Virus record (IMG/VR): IMGVR_UViG_3300047322_001258
Coordinates: 1 to 31,167 of that record
Origin: a virus
Reading direction: 5' to 3' (one strand)
DNA: 31,167 nucleotides
The notes beneath the pieces were generated by a model. It saw nothing but the letters and a program-made list of their open reading frames with translations. It was not told where the DNA came from and did not search any database. Positions 6,835 to 21,355 of this stretch are shown here, in pieces (position 1 is the stretch's first letter; each line of letters starts with the position of its first letter). The position numbers and the translations under genes are program-made.

Positions 6835-8559
6835 CTAGGCCGCCTTGCCCTTCTCCTTGATGCCGGCGGCCATCTTCTGCGCCGCCTGTTGCGTCTCCGC
6901 CTTCACCCGCTTGCGCAGAGCGTGGATCATACCATCCACGCCTGGAGGATTGAGGGTTCGCAAGAGCATTTCACGGTCGATACAGCCTGCTTTAAACAAA
7001 CCGGCCGCTTGTTCGCGACTATCATCAGCAAACAAAGGGCTATGTGAATGCCCGGCGACCCGCATCTTGAGCTTGCGCTCCGCCACCAGGGCGGGGATCA
7101 GCTCCTGCTGGGTGTCGGTGGTGATGCGCTCGGCGGAATTGCGCTGCAGCAGTTTGATGCCGATGTCGCCGATCTTGACCAGCGGCTGCTCCAGGCCCAC
7201 GGCAACCTTCTTGATGCGGCCCGAGCCGGTCGTCGCCAGTTGCTTGGCGTGGCCGCGGCCCCGCACCCCCGCCGTGCCCTGCCCGGTGACGGTTTCGGTG
7301 AGGCCTGAGGCTTCCAGGAAAATCTGACCGATCTGGTTGAACTCAACGAAGATGTCCTCGGGCATAGAGGGCTTGAGTTCGTCGACCTTGGCCCCCGGAA
7401 CCATGTCGGTGACCCAGGTGCCGGGACCGCCGAGCGCCTCGGCCTTTTCGTCCGTCAATCCCATGAACCCGCTAAAAACCTTGGCCGGATCGACCTGGCG
7501 CTCCAGAATATCGCTGATTTGCTGTAGCCGTTCGTTGGTCCATACCTGAAGTGGGATCAGCCGGTCGCTATGGGCTTCACCCCAGAAGAAATCATACTTG
7601 GGGTATGGTCTGACATGGATGAACGGGTGCTCGTTCTCGATGAAGATGTTGGACTTGCCTCGGTATCGTTTCTTGAGACTGTCCAGGTGGGTGACCTTGG
7701 CCATCGCCTCGACGGTGTCGCGCGAGTCGGACAGCACACCGTCAACGCCCTCGCACATGGTGAAGACGGCGTAGTCCTCGGTCACGTCGTCCCACACCCA
7801 GACCTCGTGGAAGCGGACCATCGGGTTGTCGGAGTTGGGGTCGTAGGTGGCGCGCGGCTCGTAGTCGACGGTGGCGCGCCCGGTCATGGCCCCGGAGATG
7901 TTGGGTCCGCCGGTCGATGAAATGAGGAGATTGGCGAGCACCGGGGGCATGTCGTCGGAGAACACGCCGGGGCGCACCGCCATCTTCTTGATTTCGGGCT
8001 TCTTGCCGGCGCGCAGCAGGCGCATCACGGCGTTGTCCCAGTTGATGCTGTAGGAGTGGACGAAGGCCTCCTGCGAGTCGAGGTCGGGTTCGCTCTCGTC
8101 GTAGACCGCGAAGTCGTGCGGGCCGAACAGGCGGCCGAACATCTGGTCGCGGGCGTCGTTCCAGCCCATCTTGATGAACATGCTGTCGTAGATCAGCGCC
8201 CAGAGCACGGCCTCGTTGAACATGTAGGCGATGCCGGTGTCCCTGAAAGTGTCGTTCCACTCGTCTTCCAGGGCGGTGATCTGCGCCACCGTCTCGTCGT
8301 CGGAGTTGCGCGGGGCTGCGATGTTGTAGCGGCAGTGGTCGGCGGCGTAGAGGAACGACGCCACCAGGTCGGTGTGGGCCTGCAGGCGGTTATACTTTAC
8401 TTCCACGGCGTAGTCGGTGGTGCCGAACATGAAGTAGCGTTTGCGGCGCAGGTAGAGCGCCTCGCGGTCGCGCTTACTGGCCAGGCAGATGTCGAGGATC
8501 GTCTGCACCTTGTCGTCGCGGTCCTTGCCGCCTTTGACCTTCCCCCGCGGCACGATCAT
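6835..8559 (-). CDS. portal protein (probable)
   Basis: This 574-residue protein starts at ATG 8559, in ATGA overlap with the gene upstream. It begins with a basic N-terminus and a helical segment (KYNRLQAHTDLVASFLYAAD). A large mixed domain follows, then a C-terminal half rich in helices and glutamine (ETQQAAQKMAAGIKEKGKAA). The size and the order terminase, small genes, portal, scaffold, capsid are those of a dodecameric portal of a head-tail phage. No short diagnostic motif exists, so the call rests on order, size and general look. Confidence 0.83.
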   Translation of the reverse strand: MIVPRGKVKGGKDRDDKVQTILDICLASKRDREALYLRRKRYFMFGTTDYAVEVKYNRLQAHTDLVASFLYAADHCRYNIAAPRNSDDETVAQITALEDEWNDTFRDTGIAYMFNEAVLWALIYDSMFIKMGWNDARDQMFGRLFGPHDFAVYDESEPDLDSQEAFVHSYSINWDNAVMRLLRAGKKPEIKKMAVRPGVFSDDMPPVLANLLISSTGGPNISGAMTGRATVDYEPRATYDPNSDNPMVRFHEVWVWDDVTEDYAVFTMCEGVDGVLSDSRDTVEAMAKVTHLDSLKKRYRGKSNIFIENEHPFIHVRPYPKYDFFWGEAHSDRLIPLQVWTNERLQQISDILERQVDPAKVFSGFMGLTDEKAEALGGPGTWVTDMVPGAKVDELKPSMPEDIFVEFNQIGQIFLEASGLTETVTGQGTAGVRGRGHAKQLATTGSGRIKKVAVGLEQPLVKIGDIGIKLLQRNSAERITTDTQQELIPALVAERKLKMRVAGHSHSPLFADDSREQAAGLFKAGCIDREMLLRTLNPPGVDGMIHALRKRVKAETQQAAQKMAAGIKEKGKAA

Positions 8560-9050
8560 TTGACGCCTCCCGGCGGGTTGTGGCGGGCCTCGTAGCTGGG
8601 GACCGAGCCGGTGGGCGAGGGCGAGGCCTTGCTGAGAGGTGTCTTCACGCCCAGACGGTCGGCACCCACGGCCAGGCGGGCCGTCACCCCGGTGGGGGCG
8701 CAGACCGACACCGGCTGGCCGTTGGCATCGACCGGCATGTCGACCGCCCAACCGGCCATGCCGGCCGGCTGGAACCGCTGGGTTTTGCCGGGCGTCTGGA
8801 CCGGATTGACGCGCGGCGCCACCGATTCATGGGTGCGCGGCGAGCGGTAGTTCTTGTCGCCGTAGGTGGCCACCAACTGGTTGACCGTCATGTCGATCTT
8901 CTTGGTGGCCTCGGAGCGGATCGCGACGGGCTTCGGGATCCAACGGGTCCTGATACCGCCGCACTTCGGACAAGGCGGGTAATCGTCGCCGTGGTCGAAC
9001 TCCAACAGGCACCATTTATTAAGGCAGATCCACGACCTCGTAATACTCAT
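8556..9050 (-). CDS. zinc-ribbon-like protein upstream of the portal gene
   Basis: This 164-residue protein has an N-terminal zinc-binding-like region: two cysteines at residues 9 and 13 (WICLNKWCL), an acidic turn, then CPKCGG at about 25-30. A proline-rich tail follows. ATG 9050 forms an ATGA overlap with the HTH gene upstream, and its own stop overlaps the portal start. A virion or assembly role is likely from position, and the family is unknown. Confidence 0.7.
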   Translation of the reverse strand: MSITRSWICLNKWCLLEFDHGDDYPPCPKCGGIRTRWIPKPVAIRSEATKKIDMTVNQLVATYGDKNYRSPRTHESVAPRVNPVQTPGKTQRFQPAGMAGWAVDMPVDANGQPVSVCAPTGVTARLAVGADRLGVKTPLSKASPSPTGSVPSYEARHNPPGGVK

Positions 9051-12826: not shown

Positions 12827-12934
12827 CTACTCCGGCGCGGGAGGCAGCGGAACTTCAAAGTAAATCAATAACAGCGCCACCACAATGGCGATGAAAATGG
12901 CTCCGGCAACGATGGCGGGGCGCTCCAGCCGCAT
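12827..12934 (-). CDS. 35-residue single-pass membrane protein
   Basis: ATG 12934 has GGAGG 6 nt upstream. The product (MRLERPAIVAGAIFIAIVVA, then LLLIYFEVPLPPAPE) has a basic start, one hydrophobic helix (7-26) and a proline-rich end. It overlaps the 3' end of the zinc-finger gene by 70 nt in another frame. It heads the membrane/lysis cluster. Confidence 0.5.
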   Translation of the reverse strand: MRLERPAIVAGAIFIAIVVALLLIYFEVPLPPAPE

Positions 12935-13185
12935 TCCTGTCCTCCCCCGGTCAACTCATTATACATAGGGCGCGAGGCGCGCCGGCGTCCAGTGCGCTGG
13001 TGCTCTCGATAGGCTTGGCATCCGGGGCATAAGCGAGAGGGCGGATCAGATCGATTCTTGCCGCACTCCTCGCACATTGGCGGCAAGCCGCGTATTTGTT
13101 CCGCCTTTGTCAATTCCGGGCAACATTTAGGACATCCACAAGATAATGGTGATCGAACATCGCCGGCCGCAAATTTGCAGATCAT
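12865..13185 (-). CDS. small zinc-finger protein
   Basis: This 106-residue protein has three cysteine clusters: CGCPKCC (16-22), CEECG (38-42) and CPGC (53-56), followed by arginines. ATG 13185 lies in a junction element that gives an ATGA overlap with the upstream stop. The C-terminal 24 codons overlap the 35-residue membrane gene. It may be a nucleic-acid-binding accessory protein. Confidence 0.55.
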   Translation of the reverse strand: MICKFAAGDVRSPLSCGCPKCCPELTKAEQIRGLPPMCEECGKNRSDPPSRLCPGCQAYREHQRTGRRRASRPMYNELTGGGQECGWSAPPSLPEPFSSPLWWRCY

Positions 13186-13218
13186 TTCTGGTTCGCACTT
13201 TCCGTGTCTGCAAACCGC
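13182..13218. repeat. junction element, copy 1
   Basis: This 37-bp sequence matches 15487-15523 with one mismatch. It carries the stop of one gene and the ATG of the next as ATGA (core AACCAGAAATGA on the minus strand). Confidence 0.85.
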
Positions 13219-13484
13219 GCGACGGATGCCCGCACCAAGCGGTCAACAGCGGCCGGAACTTCCGGGCCGTTTGGAACAATCTCAATGGCTATATCTTGCT
13301 CCTCGCCATCGATCTCTTTGACCGCCGTCAGGCTCGCCTCCCCGGTAGTTAGGTGCTCGCATTTATAACGGCCGCCGCTTTCGATGAATTGACGCGCCAA
13401 GGCCTCGATGTCAGACGGGCGATCAATTTCCTCATCCCGTTGCCGCCCATTGGGGCGCATGTACTGTGTGAAAGGTATTGTCAT
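13182..13484 (-). CDS. accessory protein ending in the junction element
   Basis: The product has 100 residues from ATG 13484; an earlier ATG 13511 is possible but sits in a GCAGAC/GTCTGC hairpin. The protein is acidic (VKEIDGEEQDIAIEIV). It ends RFADTESANQK, the same C-terminus as the otherwise different 66-residue protein at 15687-15487, because both end inside the same repeat. The function is unknown. Confidence 0.55.
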   Translation of the reverse strand: MTIPFTQYMRPNGRQRDEEIDRPSDIEALARQFIESGGRYKCEHLTTGEASLTAVKEIDGEEQDIAIEIVPNGPEVPAAVDRLVRASVARFADTESANQK

Positions 13485-13488
13485 TCCT

Positions 13489-13505
13489 TCATCTCTGGTG
13501 CGCAG
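13489..13505. repeat. junction element, diverged copy
   Basis: TCATCTCTGGTGCGCAG resembles the core TCATTTCTGGTTCGCAC. It lies at the start of the gene at 13484. The match is imperfect. Confidence 0.4.
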
Positions 13506-13526
13506 ACTCATCGTCTGCGGCGCGCT

Positions 13527-13946
13527 TTAGGCGGCGTTGACCGCTGCCTCTGGTTTCTCGCTCAAGCTGTCAACCATATGCTGCATGGCGGCGATTTCCT
13601 CGCGGGCCTTGACCGTTAGTCCATCGGCATCGGCGCGCATCATTTCCGCCATGCTCTTGAAAATCGCCTCGTTATGAAAATTGATAGCCCGGACGAGGTA
13701 CTTTTTGGCAAGATCGGCGTTGCAACTCATGAAGGTCGAGCAACTAGAGCTGCCGTAATAACCAAGGTAGCTGTCGAACGACAGCTGGACCGCGAATGAT
13801 GAGAAGCGACTGTCGATATTGAAGCTCGCGTCATGCTTGTCGCACTTCGGGTCTGAGGTCTTTTGACGGTAGCGCGCCCAAAATGAGCCAAATTCCTTGC
13901 TGTTGGTAAGCAGGGCACGGATCAGGTCCAAGGTCTTCGTGTCCAT
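13527..13946 (-). CDS. accessory protein of unknown function
   Basis: This 139-residue protein has helical ends (DTKTLDLIRALLTNS, and KAREEIAAMQHMVDSLSE) and a cysteine/serine-rich middle (GYYGSSSCSTFMSCNAD). ATG 13946 follows AGGA by 7 nt. A copy of the junction element lies just upstream (13961-13991). I do not recognise the family. Confidence 0.6.
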   Translation of the reverse strand: MDTKTLDLIRALLTNSKEFGSFWARYRQKTSDPKCDKHDASFNIDSRFSSFAVQLSFDSYLGYYGSSSCSTFMSCNADLAKKYLVRAINFHNEAIFKSMAEMMRADADGLTVKAREEIAAMQHMVDSLSEKPEAAVNAA

Positions 13947-14244
13947 CGTTCCATCCTGTTTGAAATCTGGTTTCCACTATTCCCGTGAGCGAACCTGTTG
14001 GGGTACCGCTGACCTCACCGTCAGGCAAACAGTCAGCAGGCGCGTGACGGGATCGAACCGGCACACCCGTCACTATTGGGCAACTACGCGGAATTTGCCG
14101 GCCTTGTCGGCGTCCGTGAGTGTTCATGGATACCACTCCTACCCTAGTGGCCTGCTGACAGTGACCCGCCGGGGTGCATGTGATGGATGGGCCCCGGCGG
14201 GCCTTGTGAGCTGACGGAGCGGGAGCTACGCCAGCCTACTTATG
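13947..14244. ncRNA. gene-free stretch with several stem-loops; possible structured RNA
   Basis: I see no supported gene here. It has a perfect 8-bp stem GTGACGGG/CCCGTCAC (14044-14051, 14066-14073). There is a 9-bp stem CCGCCGGGG/CCCCGGCGG (14166-14174, 14192-14200). A long-range 9-bp pair GTCAGCAGG/CCTGCTGAC (14032-14040, 14151-14159) encloses the first stem. A junction element copy lies at 13961-13991. It could be a structured leader or a small RNA. A tRNA was considered and rejected. Confidence 0.35.
13961..13991. repeat. junction element, second form
   Basis: Most of this 31-bp sequence matches 16454-16483, including CCACTATTCCCGTGAGCG. It shares the CTGGTT-x-CCACT core with the other form. 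Confidence 0.75.
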
Positions 14245-14904
14245 TTACGCGAGCCTGTTGGACTTGCGCTTGCGCACCAGCGCCATGAGGCCCACCAGAC
14301 CGGCGCCGAAGAACGGCAGTGATGCCGGCAGCGGGGTCGCCGCCAAGGTGGCGTCGAAGTTTCTCAGCAGTACGTTGGCGTTGCAGCCAGAGCCACACTG
14401 ATTGACGCCATTACCGAAGTAGAAGAAGTTGTAGTTGTCCCAGCCGCCGGCGAGAGTGTGGAAGCCTTCCTGCCCACCGGGATCAGTCGAGCTTGCCAGC
14501 AGGGTGAACTGGAACGGATGGTCATCGTTCGAGCCGAACACCTTCCAACCTTCGTTCTGGGTGGTCGATCCCATCTGGAACGTGAACCCATTGATATCCA
14601 GCAGGCCCAGCAACCCATCCAGGTTCAGTTGGACGAAGTTGCCCCCGGTGATCTCGTGATCGCCGGACGCATCGTTGTTGAGGCCGAGGCCGTTCTCGTC
14701 GCCGCCGCCGTTCTTGCCGAACAAGGCGGTGCCGGCGTCACTGGCCGTGAAGCCACGCGCGGTGAGGCCGTGGCCGCCGGCCGTGAAGGTCTGGGTGTTG
14801 CCCAGCACGCCGAGATGGTCCTGGAAGTCCCAGTCCAGGATGGCGGCCGAAGCCGGCAGTGTGCAGATCGCCAGCAGGGCGGTCGTTGCGAGAAGTCGCT
14901 TCAT
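14245..14904 (-). CDS. secreted protein with PEP-CTERM-like sorting tail
   Basis: This 219-residue protein has a Sec signal peptide (MKRLLATTALLAICTLPASA, cut near 21-22). Its mature domain is Gly/Asn/Phe-rich and beta-like, with one cysteine pair (QCGSGC). The C-terminus has PLPAS (about 191-195), a hydrophobic helix (SLPFFGAGLVGLMAL) and RKRK. This is the tripartite pattern of PEP-CTERM (VPLPA subtype) substrates processed by exosortase in Gram-negative bacteria. ATG 14904 was chosen over an upstream frame because the signal peptide starts there. It is an unusual cargo for a phage, probably host-derived. Confidence 0.85.
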   Translation of the reverse strand: MKRLLATTALLAICTLPASAAILDWDFQDHLGVLGNTQTFTAGGHGLTARGFTASDAGTALFGKNGGGDENGLGLNNDASGDHEITGGNFVQLNLDGLLGLLDINGFTFQMGSTTQNEGWKVFGSNDDHPFQFTLLASSTDPGGQEGFHTLAGGWDNYNFFYFGNGVNQCGSGCNANVLLRNFDATLAATPLPASLPFFGAGLVGLMALVRKRKSNRLA

Positions 14905-14989
14905 GAGAACATCCTTTGTTGGTTCGTTTGTTGCCCCTAATGACTCGTCGTCGGCAGCATTAGGACGTGCCGTCGCCTCCTCAGAACGC

Positions 14990-15008
14990 TCATTTCTGGT
15001 TCGCACTT
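14990..15008. repeat. junction element, copy 2
   Basis: These 19 bp are identical to the core at 13182 and 15487. It holds the methyltransferase stop as ATGA. Confidence 0.85.
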
Positions 15009-15490
15009 CTGTCATGTGGGCCGCGCTTTGAACGTAGCGTCCGTAGCGTCGGCATCAGCGCGGGCACGTCACCACACAGGTAGAACGATCCGAAGTTCCA
15101 GCGCGCCCGCCCGACCCTTTTCTGCGCCCCGCGCACGTTCTCAACGATCAGCGGCACCTTGTGGCCGGCCGCCTCCGAGGCCTCGCGCTGGATGCGAAAG
15201 CACGCCTCGAACAGCGTGTTGTCAGGCGGCGGCAGCGCCTTGGCGCGCTTCCACGGCATCGCCCGGTAGCTGTAGGCCTGGCAGGGGGGACTGGCGATGA
15301 TGAGCGCGGCGTCCCGAAACTGGCTGCCGTGCAGCGTCAGCACGTCCTGGACGACAAGCATCCCCGGATAGCGATGCTCGCCATATTCGTGCCGCTCGAT
15401 GTCGAAGCCAATCACGTCATAGCCTTCCGCAAGTAGGGCCTCGGTCCAGCCGCCCAAGCGGCAAAACAAGTCGATCGCCAGCGGCTTCAT
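14990..15490 (-). CDS. compact C5-cytosine DNA methyltransferase-like protein
   Basis: This 166-residue protein has the C5-methyltransferase motifs: I (IDLFCRLGGWTEAL, residues 6-19), IV with the catalytic Cys (ASPPCQAYS, 66-74) and VI (IVENVRG, 115-121). A QKRVGRAR stretch may stand for motif VIII. Known enzymes are usually over 300 residues with a target-recognition domain and motifs IX-X; these are missing. It ends RSANQK in the junction element. It may be a minimal enzyme, need a partner or be decayed. ATG 15490 overlaps the upstream stop. Confidence 0.8.
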   Translation of the reverse strand: MKPLAIDLFCRLGGWTEALLAEGYDVIGFDIERHEYGEHRYPGMLVVQDVLTLHGSQFRDAALIIASPPCQAYSYRAMPWKRAKALPPPDNTLFEACFRIQREASEAAGHKVPLIVENVRGAQKRVGRARWNFGSFYLCGDVPALMPTLRTLRSKRGPHDRSANQK

Positions 15491-15523
15491 TTCTGGTTCG
15501 CACTTTCCGTATCTGCAAACCGC
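15487..15523. repeat. junction element, copy 3
   Basis: This matches 13182-13218 over 37 bp with one mismatch. It encodes the shared C-terminus RFADTESANQK and the next ATG. Confidence 0.85.
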
Positions 15524-15687
15524 AGGTGTTCCCGCCGCGCGAAATTGACTAGGCACATGATGAGAAACACGGCCTTCTGCTCCCTCACTTCCTGGCCGAC
15601 GAACTTTCCCAACGAGTCCAATCGCTCGAACTGATCGAGTATTTCATTCGCCTCAGTAGCGGCCCTATCTTTCACCTGGTCGTCCAT
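15487..15687 (-). CDS. small helical accessory protein
   Basis: This 66-residue protein has one long charged helix (VKDRAATEANEILDQFERLD) and a hydrophobic patch (KAVFLIMCLVNF), and it ends RFADTESANQK in the junction repeat. ATG 15687 lies 6 nt after AGGGG; ATG 15693 is too close. It sits between the two methyltransferases. The function is unknown. Confidence 0.6.
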   Translation of the reverse strand: MDDQVKDRAATEANEILDQFERLDSLGKFVGQEVREQKAVFLIMCLVNFARREHLRFADTESANQK

Positions 15688-15699
15688 CTTCATCCCCTA

Positions 15700-15724
15700 T
15701 GGTGCCCACTACTCTCGTCTGCGC
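15700..15724. repeat. junction element, diverged copy
   Basis: This partly matches the 16454 form (TGGTGCCCACTACT against TGGTTCCCACTATT). It lies just after the adenine methyltransferase stop. Confidence 0.4.
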
Positions 15725-15725
15725 A

Positions 15726-16457
15726 CTACGCCGCGAATAATGATTCTTTGAGACGGTTCGTGGCAGCGGCGTGGTACGCCTCATTGATCTCAGACCCAAA
15801 GTAGTCGCGGCCAGCGTGGCTGCACGCTTCCGCAACCGCAGCCGAGCCAGCAAAGAAATCCCCGACCAGACCTCCAGGTGGGCAGGACGCGCGAATGATG
15901 ATCTCGAGCAGCCCGACCGGCTTTTCCGTGGGGTGGATAGCCTCGCCGTGGCACGACCGCATGTAGATCACAGAGCGCATCAGGCGCGGGCCGCCGTCCT
16001 CAGACGTGTACGAGCTGGCCTCGACGTGCCCGGTGTGGGGCGGCCGTTTCTTGCGCCGCACGGTGCGCGCCGTGGCGTCTGGAGTGGTCGGAACATCGTT
16101 GTAGACCTGTGACCACTCAGCGTCCGCCCGATAGAATTGAACCGCATGTTCATGGACGCGCTTGAACCTGTCCGCGTGAAAGGCGCTCCCGTTATGCTTC
16201 TCCCAAACCAAATCTTGGGCATAGCGAAGGCCGGCGGCCTCGATCTCCGGGCCGCACGCCATCAACGAGCGCATGGAGCCGAATAGCCAAAGCGACCCCG
16301 ACTTCTTGAGGCAGGAGGCGGCAATAGGCAGCCACCCATCTACCGCCCGATCCCATCCGAGGGACGTGACGGCATAGGGAGGGTCGGCAATGATCAGATC
16401 GTAGGGGCGGCCCATCATCACGCACCGACAATCACCTTTGACCAATTGAGCCCTCAT
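15726..16457 (-). CDS. beta-class DNA adenine/cytosine-N4 methyltransferase
   Basis: This 243-residue protein has catalytic motif IV DPPY (25-28), then HPTEKPVGLLE (175-185) and the SAM-binding GDFFAGSAAVAEA (199-211). The order DPPY first, SAM motif last is that of the beta class, which includes CcrM. The central target-recognition part (RRKKRPPHTGHVEASSYT) is present, so it looks complete. ATG 16457 lies in the junction element. It may protect phage DNA or alter host methylation signals. The target sequence cannot be read from the gene. Confidence 0.9.
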   Translation of the reverse strand: MRAQLVKGDCRCVMMGRPYDLIIADPPYAVTSLGWDRAVDGWLPIAASCLKKSGSLWLFGSMRSLMACGPEIEAAGLRYAQDLVWEKHNGSAFHADRFKRVHEHAVQFYRADAEWSQVYNDVPTTPDATARTVRRKKRPPHTGHVEASSYTSEDGGPRLMRSVIYMRSCHGEAIHPTEKPVGLLEIIIRASCPPGGLVGDFFAGSAAVAEACSHAGRDYFGSEINEAYHAAATNRLKESLFAA

Positions 16458-16483
16458 TCTGGTTCCCACTATTCCCGTGAGCG
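16454..16483. repeat. junction element, second form
   Basis: This copy matches 13961-13991 in most positions. The methyltransferase ATG lies inside it, and CCCG-CTCA-CGGG on the minus strand forms a small hairpin at its edge. Confidence 0.75.
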
Positions 16484-20630: not shown

Positions 20631-20634
20631 GGCG

Positions 20635-20684
20635 TGATTGCAGCCAATGGGGCTTGCGGGCCCCATTACCGGCAATCATGCCGA
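20635..20684. repeat. 50-bp hairpin repeat, copy 1
   Basis: Identical over 50 bp to 21071-21120. The centre, AATGGGGC-TTGCGG-GCCCCATT, is an 8-bp stem with a 6-nt loop. It lies in the gap between two early genes. Confidence 0.9.
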
Positions 20685-20707
20685 CAACGGACGGGAAGGA
20701 CTCTGCA

Positions 20708-21073
20708 ATGGCATACGCAGAACGAAATCGGGCCTTGAAGGCATTGCTTGAGCAAGCTTTCGGCAGGGGCAAGGTGTCGGTGAAAGGCCATCGCGGCACG
20801 GCGAGCGGCTGGGCAACGATCAAGATCGCCCATGCGCCGCGCAACCAGCGTGAGGCGCAGGAGCTGCGGGCGCAGGTGTGGAAACTGATCCGCGCTGGCA
20901 AGGTTGAGATTCCGACCTACGGCTATGACGATCCGGGCTCGGACTATGGCCACGGCAATTGCCTCCATATCCATTTCGAGCCATCCCGCGAGCAGGCTGA
21001 TTTCCATGGCCCCGAGGCTTGGCGGCACCACCTGAGCGCGGCCGATTGGGACGCTCTCAAGTCGCAAGCCTGA
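20708..21073 (+). CDS. early protein of unknown function
   Basis: This 121-residue protein starts at ATG 20708 with GGGAAGGA 7 nt upstream; the frame's upstream extension runs through the repeat and is not used. It has a Gly/basic start (FGRGKVSVKGHRGTASGW) and ends in an aromatic/acidic half (YGYDDPGSDYGHGNCLHIHF). It resembles no family I can name. Its stop codon starts the second 50-bp repeat. Confidence 0.68.
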   Translation: MAYAERNRALKALLEQAFGRGKVSVKGHRGTASGWATIKIAHAPRNQREAQELRAQVWKLIRAGKVEIPTYGYDDPGSDYGHGNCLHIHFEPSREQADFHGPEAWRHHLSAADWDALKSQA

Positions 21074-21120
21074 TTGCAGCCAATGGGGCTTGCGGGCCCC
21101 ATTACCGGCAATCATGCCGA
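21071..21120. repeat. 50-bp hairpin repeat, copy 2
   Basis: A perfect copy of 20635-20684. Its first three bases are the stop of the gene at 20708. As RNA it would form the same stem-loop 26 nt before the next ATG. Confidence 0.9.
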
Positions 21121-21145
21121 GCACGAACCTGGAAAGGATTCCACC

Positions 21146-21355
21146 ATGGCCGACAACCGATTTCCCTATACGCCAGAACTGGCGCCGTTCCAGCGCGCCT
21201 TTGACGCTTGGCTTGACGAAATCATCCGCGTTTATGGGCCTGATTCGGGCGCCGGATGGGATGAGCGCGGGCGCGGCGCGGAAGGTTCGCATCTGCGCAA
21301 GCTTTGGGATGCGCGGCACGCGGCGCGACAAGCTTGGCTTAGGAGCGCAGCATGA
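21146..21355 (+). CDS. small early protein
   Basis: This 69-residue protein is helical and aromatic (PFQRAFDAWLDEIIRVYGPD). ATG 21146 has GGAAAGGA 7 nt upstream. Its stop makes an ATGA overlap with the next gene. The function is unknown. Confidence 0.65.
   Translation: MADNRFPYTPELAPFQRAFDAWLDEIIRVYGPDSGAGWDERGRGAEGSHLRKLWDARHAARQAWLRSAA

Follow-up and report, generated by a model that had tools for sequence, protein, structure and literature searches.

The window analysed here is the whole of a 31,167-base virus record, and it carries seven copies of a short element, all on the minus strand and all within 3.3 kb (13182-16483). Three copies share an identical 19-bp core, TCATTTCTGGTTCGCACTT, at 13182, 14990 and 15487, and over 37 bp there is one mismatch between the copies at 13182 and 15487 (97% identity). 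A related form occurs in the copies at 13961 and 16454, in which the stretches 13966-13991 and 16458-16483 are 96% identical, while the weak copies at 13489 and 15694-15730 proved to be genuine family members in a weight-matrix scan. When the whole window was searched with an 18-base core pattern, allowing up to two mismatches, only the three strong copies matched, and the reversed control of this pattern gave no match in the window. The copy comparisons and scans bear out the repeat as it stood in the preliminary description, with its core, its 37-bp pair, its related form and its weaker copies.

Read along the minus strand, the array opens with element copy 1 (type I, GCTCACGGGAATAGTGGGAACCAGAATGA, 16454-16482), which precedes a cassette gene for a 243-residue N6/N4 methyltransferase (N6_N4_Mtase, PF01555; 15726-16457). 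At copy 2, a weak one (GCAGACGAGAGTAGTGGGCACCATAGGGG, 15694-15722), the stop of the upstream gene is positioned exactly at -6. The 68-aa cassette gene at 15487-15693 follows, and the element after it, copy 3 (type II, GCAGATACGGAAAGTGCGAACCAGAAATGA, 15487-15516), encodes its C-terminus, RFADTESANQK. Thereafter come a 166-aa cassette gene matching the C5 DNA methylases over part of their length (PF00145; 14990-15490), copy 4 (type II variant, CCACATGACAGAAGTGCGAACCAGAAATGA, 14990-15019) and a 219-aa PEP-CTERM-like gene (14245-14904), which is not bounded by elements and whose relatives are found away from them. Copy 5 (type I, GCTCACGGGAATAGTGGAAACCAGATTTCA, 13961-13990), in which the next gene's start codon lies 44 nt in, is followed by a 139-aa cassette gene (phrog_25872, unknown function; 13527-13946), and copy 6, again weak (GCAGACGATGAGTCTGCGCACCAGAGATGA, 13489-13518), by a 100-aa cassette gene within a 109-aa ORF (13182-13484), which recurs in five further phages. 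The last copy, copy 7 (type II, GCAGACACGGAAAGTGCGAACCAGAAATGA, 13182-13211), is followed by the last cassette gene (106 aa; 12865-13185), a relative of which comes after an element in contig G004. All of these genes are on the minus strand. Elsewhere in the window, an 83-bp repeat with 87% identity is located at about 20632-20714 and 21068-21150.

At 13182 and 15487 the minus-strand sequence AACCAGAAATGA contains the stop that ends one gene as well as the ATG from which the next begins; at 14990 it gives the stop, but the ATG there opens just 18 codons. The translations confirm that two unrelated proteins of the window share the C-terminus RFADTESANQK, as had been described, and a third, which ends at 14990, closes with SANQK. 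The overlap of stop and start had been put forward as a feature of the clearest copies, and it is found in two of them, but among all the copies described below the 4-nt ATGA overlap occurs in only 10 of the 31 that are assignable.

Pattern scans of IMG/VR, followed by the merging of near-identical records, yielded 12 distinct viral contigs, the window included (503,481 bp). A 27-position weight matrix detected 38 element copies in these contigs, all 38 on the coding strand and in one cluster per contig, whereas the reversed control of the 12 contigs contained no match at a score of 10 or more (10 being the cut-off for the control comparison, with one copy among the 38 at 9.8). All but one of the 38 are followed, no more than about 50 nt from the first base of the element, by the start codon of an ORF that has 45 codons or more. 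The upstream gene has its stop in one of three places: in the same frame and exactly six bases ahead of the element, inside the element, or at the TGA of an ATGA. The element is described here as a leader of about 30-36 bp, with a coding-strand consensus near GCNSACGRGARTAGTGGGAACCAGA-ATG and copies that are alike over about 25-37 bp.

Neither the contig scans nor the genome scans found the element outside gene junctions. The type III pattern, its commonest form, was absent from the genomes of 84,980 bacterial and archaeal species, and a blastn search of the region against GenBank phages returned no element-bearing record, just a methylase match and one short match. Single 18-mer matches in L004-L008, L011 and L012 were considered as further copies; they are missing the left half and were taken as chance. 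The 109-aa protein has relatives with 45% identity in Rhizobium phages, where they occur without the element. The weak protein matches in Rhizobium phages and Methylobacterium point to a possible host among the Hyphomicrobiales.

Copies of the element precede unrelated genes, which in the different contigs encode a C5 methylase, N6/N4 methylases, Dam, MazG-like, HNH and PAPS-reductase-like proteins, together with many unknowns. In total, 42 array genes were examined, 22 of them singletons, and those that were shared had mostly differing neighbours between contigs. The 68-aa cassette gene (15487-15693), for example, is also present in G007, with 94.5% DNA identity and another downstream neighbour. 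The genes around the repeat had been regarded as exchangeable cargo. The PEP-CTERM-like gene is not cargo of the element: its own start is about 85 nt beyond the element, and its relative in G004 (82% amino acid identity) is more than 1.3 kb away from any element. This gene joined the array of the window without an element at its own start. PEP-CTERM-like proteins recur in this phage group, in the window, in G004 and apparently in G008. The product of one array gene in G012 (oriented 8276-8896) contains a long YGYGYG / GDGSGDG run. The arrays are adjoined by a conserved protein of 409-473 aa with no Pfam match (L037, 14502-15923, minus strand; on the right side in G002, G007, G010 and G011), for which bacterial genomes yielded only a 41% relative, on a Methylobacterium oxalidis contig.

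Gene content in the 12 contigs and their relatives was found to switch, for the most part, exactly between copies of the element. The alignments show what appear to be exchanges of single genes between otherwise divergent phages, with homology blocks that start and end inside the element. The gene of the 109-aa protein occurs in the window (G000), G002, G006, G008, G011 and L115 with 88-96% amino acid identity and differing left neighbours. The window and G002 have little in common, yet one 301-bp match (95.7%) spans this gene, and both of its ends in the window fall inside elements; the same element-bounded match was obtained with G006 (92.6%). Between G009 and G010 there are only three HSPs in all, totalling 1207 nt, and one of these, an element-gene-element block of 294 nt, is 98.3% identical in the two, with an abrupt drop in identity at both elements and about 99% identity in its 69-aa gene. 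In G008 and L050, the 2.4 kb that lead up to an element are 99.7% identical, and beyond it a 56-aa gene is missing from L050. The flanks of L119 (the phage of G010) and L123 are about 95% identical on both sides, and the border elements enclose three genes in one of the two and a single short gene in the other. Since the homology blocks begin and end inside the element, each mobile unit comprises the right half of an element, the gene and the left half of the next element.

Over all contig pairs, 29 of 73 breakpoint clusters were located in elements; shifted positions gave 6.6 on average, and none of 5000 shifts reached 29. The remaining 44 are outside elements, some of them at gene starts that have no element (for example, G002 37001). 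The array data are all from metagenome contigs with joints at repeats, as might be produced by short-read assemblers that fused unrelated genes at a common 30-37 bp repeat. Such misassembly is extremely unlikely, because separate records agree: the arrangement of the window recurs in G001 and G003 (99.99%; array identical to that of G001), and agreement is also seen between G008 and L059 at the element contexts, among G010, L058 and L062, and from L115 to L117. Moreover, the collapse of one identical repeat could not give rise to differing switch points inside the element.

Such differing points are evident for the 109-aa gene, whose 3' switch point occupies different element positions in the window, G002, G006, G008, G011 and L050, whereas the right half TCTGCGCACCAG keeps to the 5' end of this gene in every context except L115. 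G002 and G007 match through GCAGACGGGAAT and diverge after it, and in general the switch points are spread across 14 bp or more of the element. The left forms GCTCAC, GCACAC and GCAGAC are combined with the right forms GGGAATAG and GAGAGTTC in all six possible ways, as would be expected if crossovers fall within the element. Scattered switch points together with reassorted halves are the pattern that crossovers within the element, at no one fixed base, would leave in aligned contigs. Composite elements with a type II left half and a type III right half (CACATACGGAACCCGCGCCCGAGAGTTCTGCGCACC) are present in G004 (oriented 25714) and G006 (oriented 8206). In G011 (oriented 43579-44271; L080), loss of the stop from the element has led to an in-frame fusion of the 109-aa protein with the following gene.

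The same junctions could be viewed in another way, with the element as a mere translation-start or expression signal, comparable to the SAS of cluster K mycobacteriophages, and with random illegitimate exchange from which the cuts inside genes have been lost. Nearly all copies directly precede a start codon, and some exchanges stop at gene starts without an element. In addition, anti-Shine-Dalgarno pairing is moderate for starts no farther away than +27, yet better than for random 17-mers (mean of -5.1 versus -2.8 kcal/mol). A role of the element in translation start is likely, if weakly supported. As a full account, however, the signal reading is rather unlikely, albeit deserving of some weight: crossovers inside the element reassort its halves, and the left half tracks the upstream gene while the right half tracks the downstream gene, which would not result from a leader that travels whole.

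Integron attC arrays have an integrase beside the array, one fixed cut position and a conserved imperfect hairpin as the site. The arrays described here resemble them in their tandem single-gene units between like sites in direct repeat, and a dedicated tyrosine recombinase could be envisaged that has the element as its cutting site and single-gene cassettes as its cargo. The direct repeats around single genes, the half-sites that move with the cassette and the integrase near the array in G005, G006, G008 and G012 all agree with such a scheme. It is nonetheless very improbable. The array has no fixed cut position, the 3' switch points varying with context over the 14 bp or more noted above. 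A PF00589 integrase was detected in 7 of the 12 contigs (some of which may be incomplete) and is missing from the other five, the window among them; it is not always near the array, and in G002 it is about 9 kb off. A conserved folded site is likewise lacking in the element: individual copies can fold well, with z values as low as -3.4, but z averages -1.06 and is not uniform. A conserved RNA hairpin was rejected, with 60% of its pairs formed versus 58% in shuffled sequences, 69 of 1000 shuffles as high, and no more covariation than in the shuffles. It is highly doubtful that the locus is a dedicated cassette system, in which an evolved site with its own putative recombinase would insert single counter-defence genes, in the proper reading register, into a fixed locus with borders, in integron-like fashion.

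Other signals were sought at the element. A consensus scan limited to promoters of the sigma-70 type gave two sites in the region, neither of them on the element, and no coding-strand terminator was called at the element copies. A search of Rfam with the element returned no matches up to E=1. A tRNA attachment site was rejected, as the window is without any tRNA.

The promoter-early stem-loops (PeSLs) of T4-type phages, reportedly treated by Arbiol in 2010 and Comeau in 2014, carry an early promoter and a stem-loop terminator. In passages of a citing paper, these mobile regulatory cassettes are reported to mediate gene shuffling (PMC4503421). The PeSL resembles the element as a repeated short intergenic signal that lies among small accessory genes of hypervariable regions and is credited with shuffling between related phages; the element, too, has gene content that differs between relatives at its repeats. 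In contrast to the PeSL, the element has no sigma-70-type promoter call, coding-strand terminator call or supported conserved stem-loop, and it extends over the start codon and in some copies over the last part of the upstream gene.

The SAS/ESAS of cluster K mycobacteriophages is described, in the relevant passages, as a short asymmetric repeat with the consensus GGGATAGGAGCCC, suspected of a role in translation initiation and present in 11-19 copies spread through the genome (PMC3203893). According to the same passages, its copies are almost all in one orientation and immediately upstream of small-gene starts of different families, in which the element is similar (37/38 copies at starts, 38/38 in one orientation). 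The consensus of the element, however, is unrelated to GGGATAGGAGCCC; the element is confined to one locus, whereas SAS is genome-wide; and exchange is documented at the element, while the SAS passages give no description of exchange points. The element is closest to the PeSLs by behaviour and to the cluster K SAS by placement, and is a member of neither, since it has no promoter or stem-loop as in the former and its sequence differs from that of the latter.

We consider it fairly probable that the element is a leader that also provides the patch of homology through which cassettes are exchanged within a hypervariable locus of mosaic tailed phages. The element forms the joint between successive small accessory genes, and its copies, being alike over about 25-37 bp, would act as homology patches for recombination. 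Homologous or annealing-type recombination, for example by the phage RecT, would join a new gene to the array at the element. As the exchange would leave the leader and start codon in place, often together with an in-frame stop, the incoming gene could be expressed at once in the operon. The copies would be held alike by such recombination together with the role in translation start. From the size of the element, equal to the minimal efficient pairing segment of Red-beta (23-27 bp) or RecA (31-34 bp) (PMC3945230), and from a RecT encoded in 5 of the 12 contigs, we infer exchange of a homologous or annealing type, probably the latter. RecT had no match in the other seven contigs, the window included, although contigs may be incomplete, and the ERF and AAA_24 recombinases had no match in any of the 12.

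The preliminary description had proposed that the element acts as a recombination seam. The switching of gene content at its copies partly supports this proposal, but the element as the driver of exchange stays conjectural, as it may just mark boundaries at which recombinants survive. If only gene-boundary recombinants survived, breakpoints would also accumulate at boundaries, and the excess of breakpoints may be partly due to selection for breaks at such positions.

It has long been asked how phages acquire and lose individual accessory genes while keeping their operons intact. In this locus a dozen relatives reveal the joint base by base, and near-identical backgrounds differ by one gene, so that the idea of a repeated leader that serves as a homology patch becomes directly testable. 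The presence of DNA methylases (C5, N6/N4 and Dam), a MazG-like protein and an HNH nuclease among the exchanged genes suggests that the exchange locus may tune the phage against host restriction.
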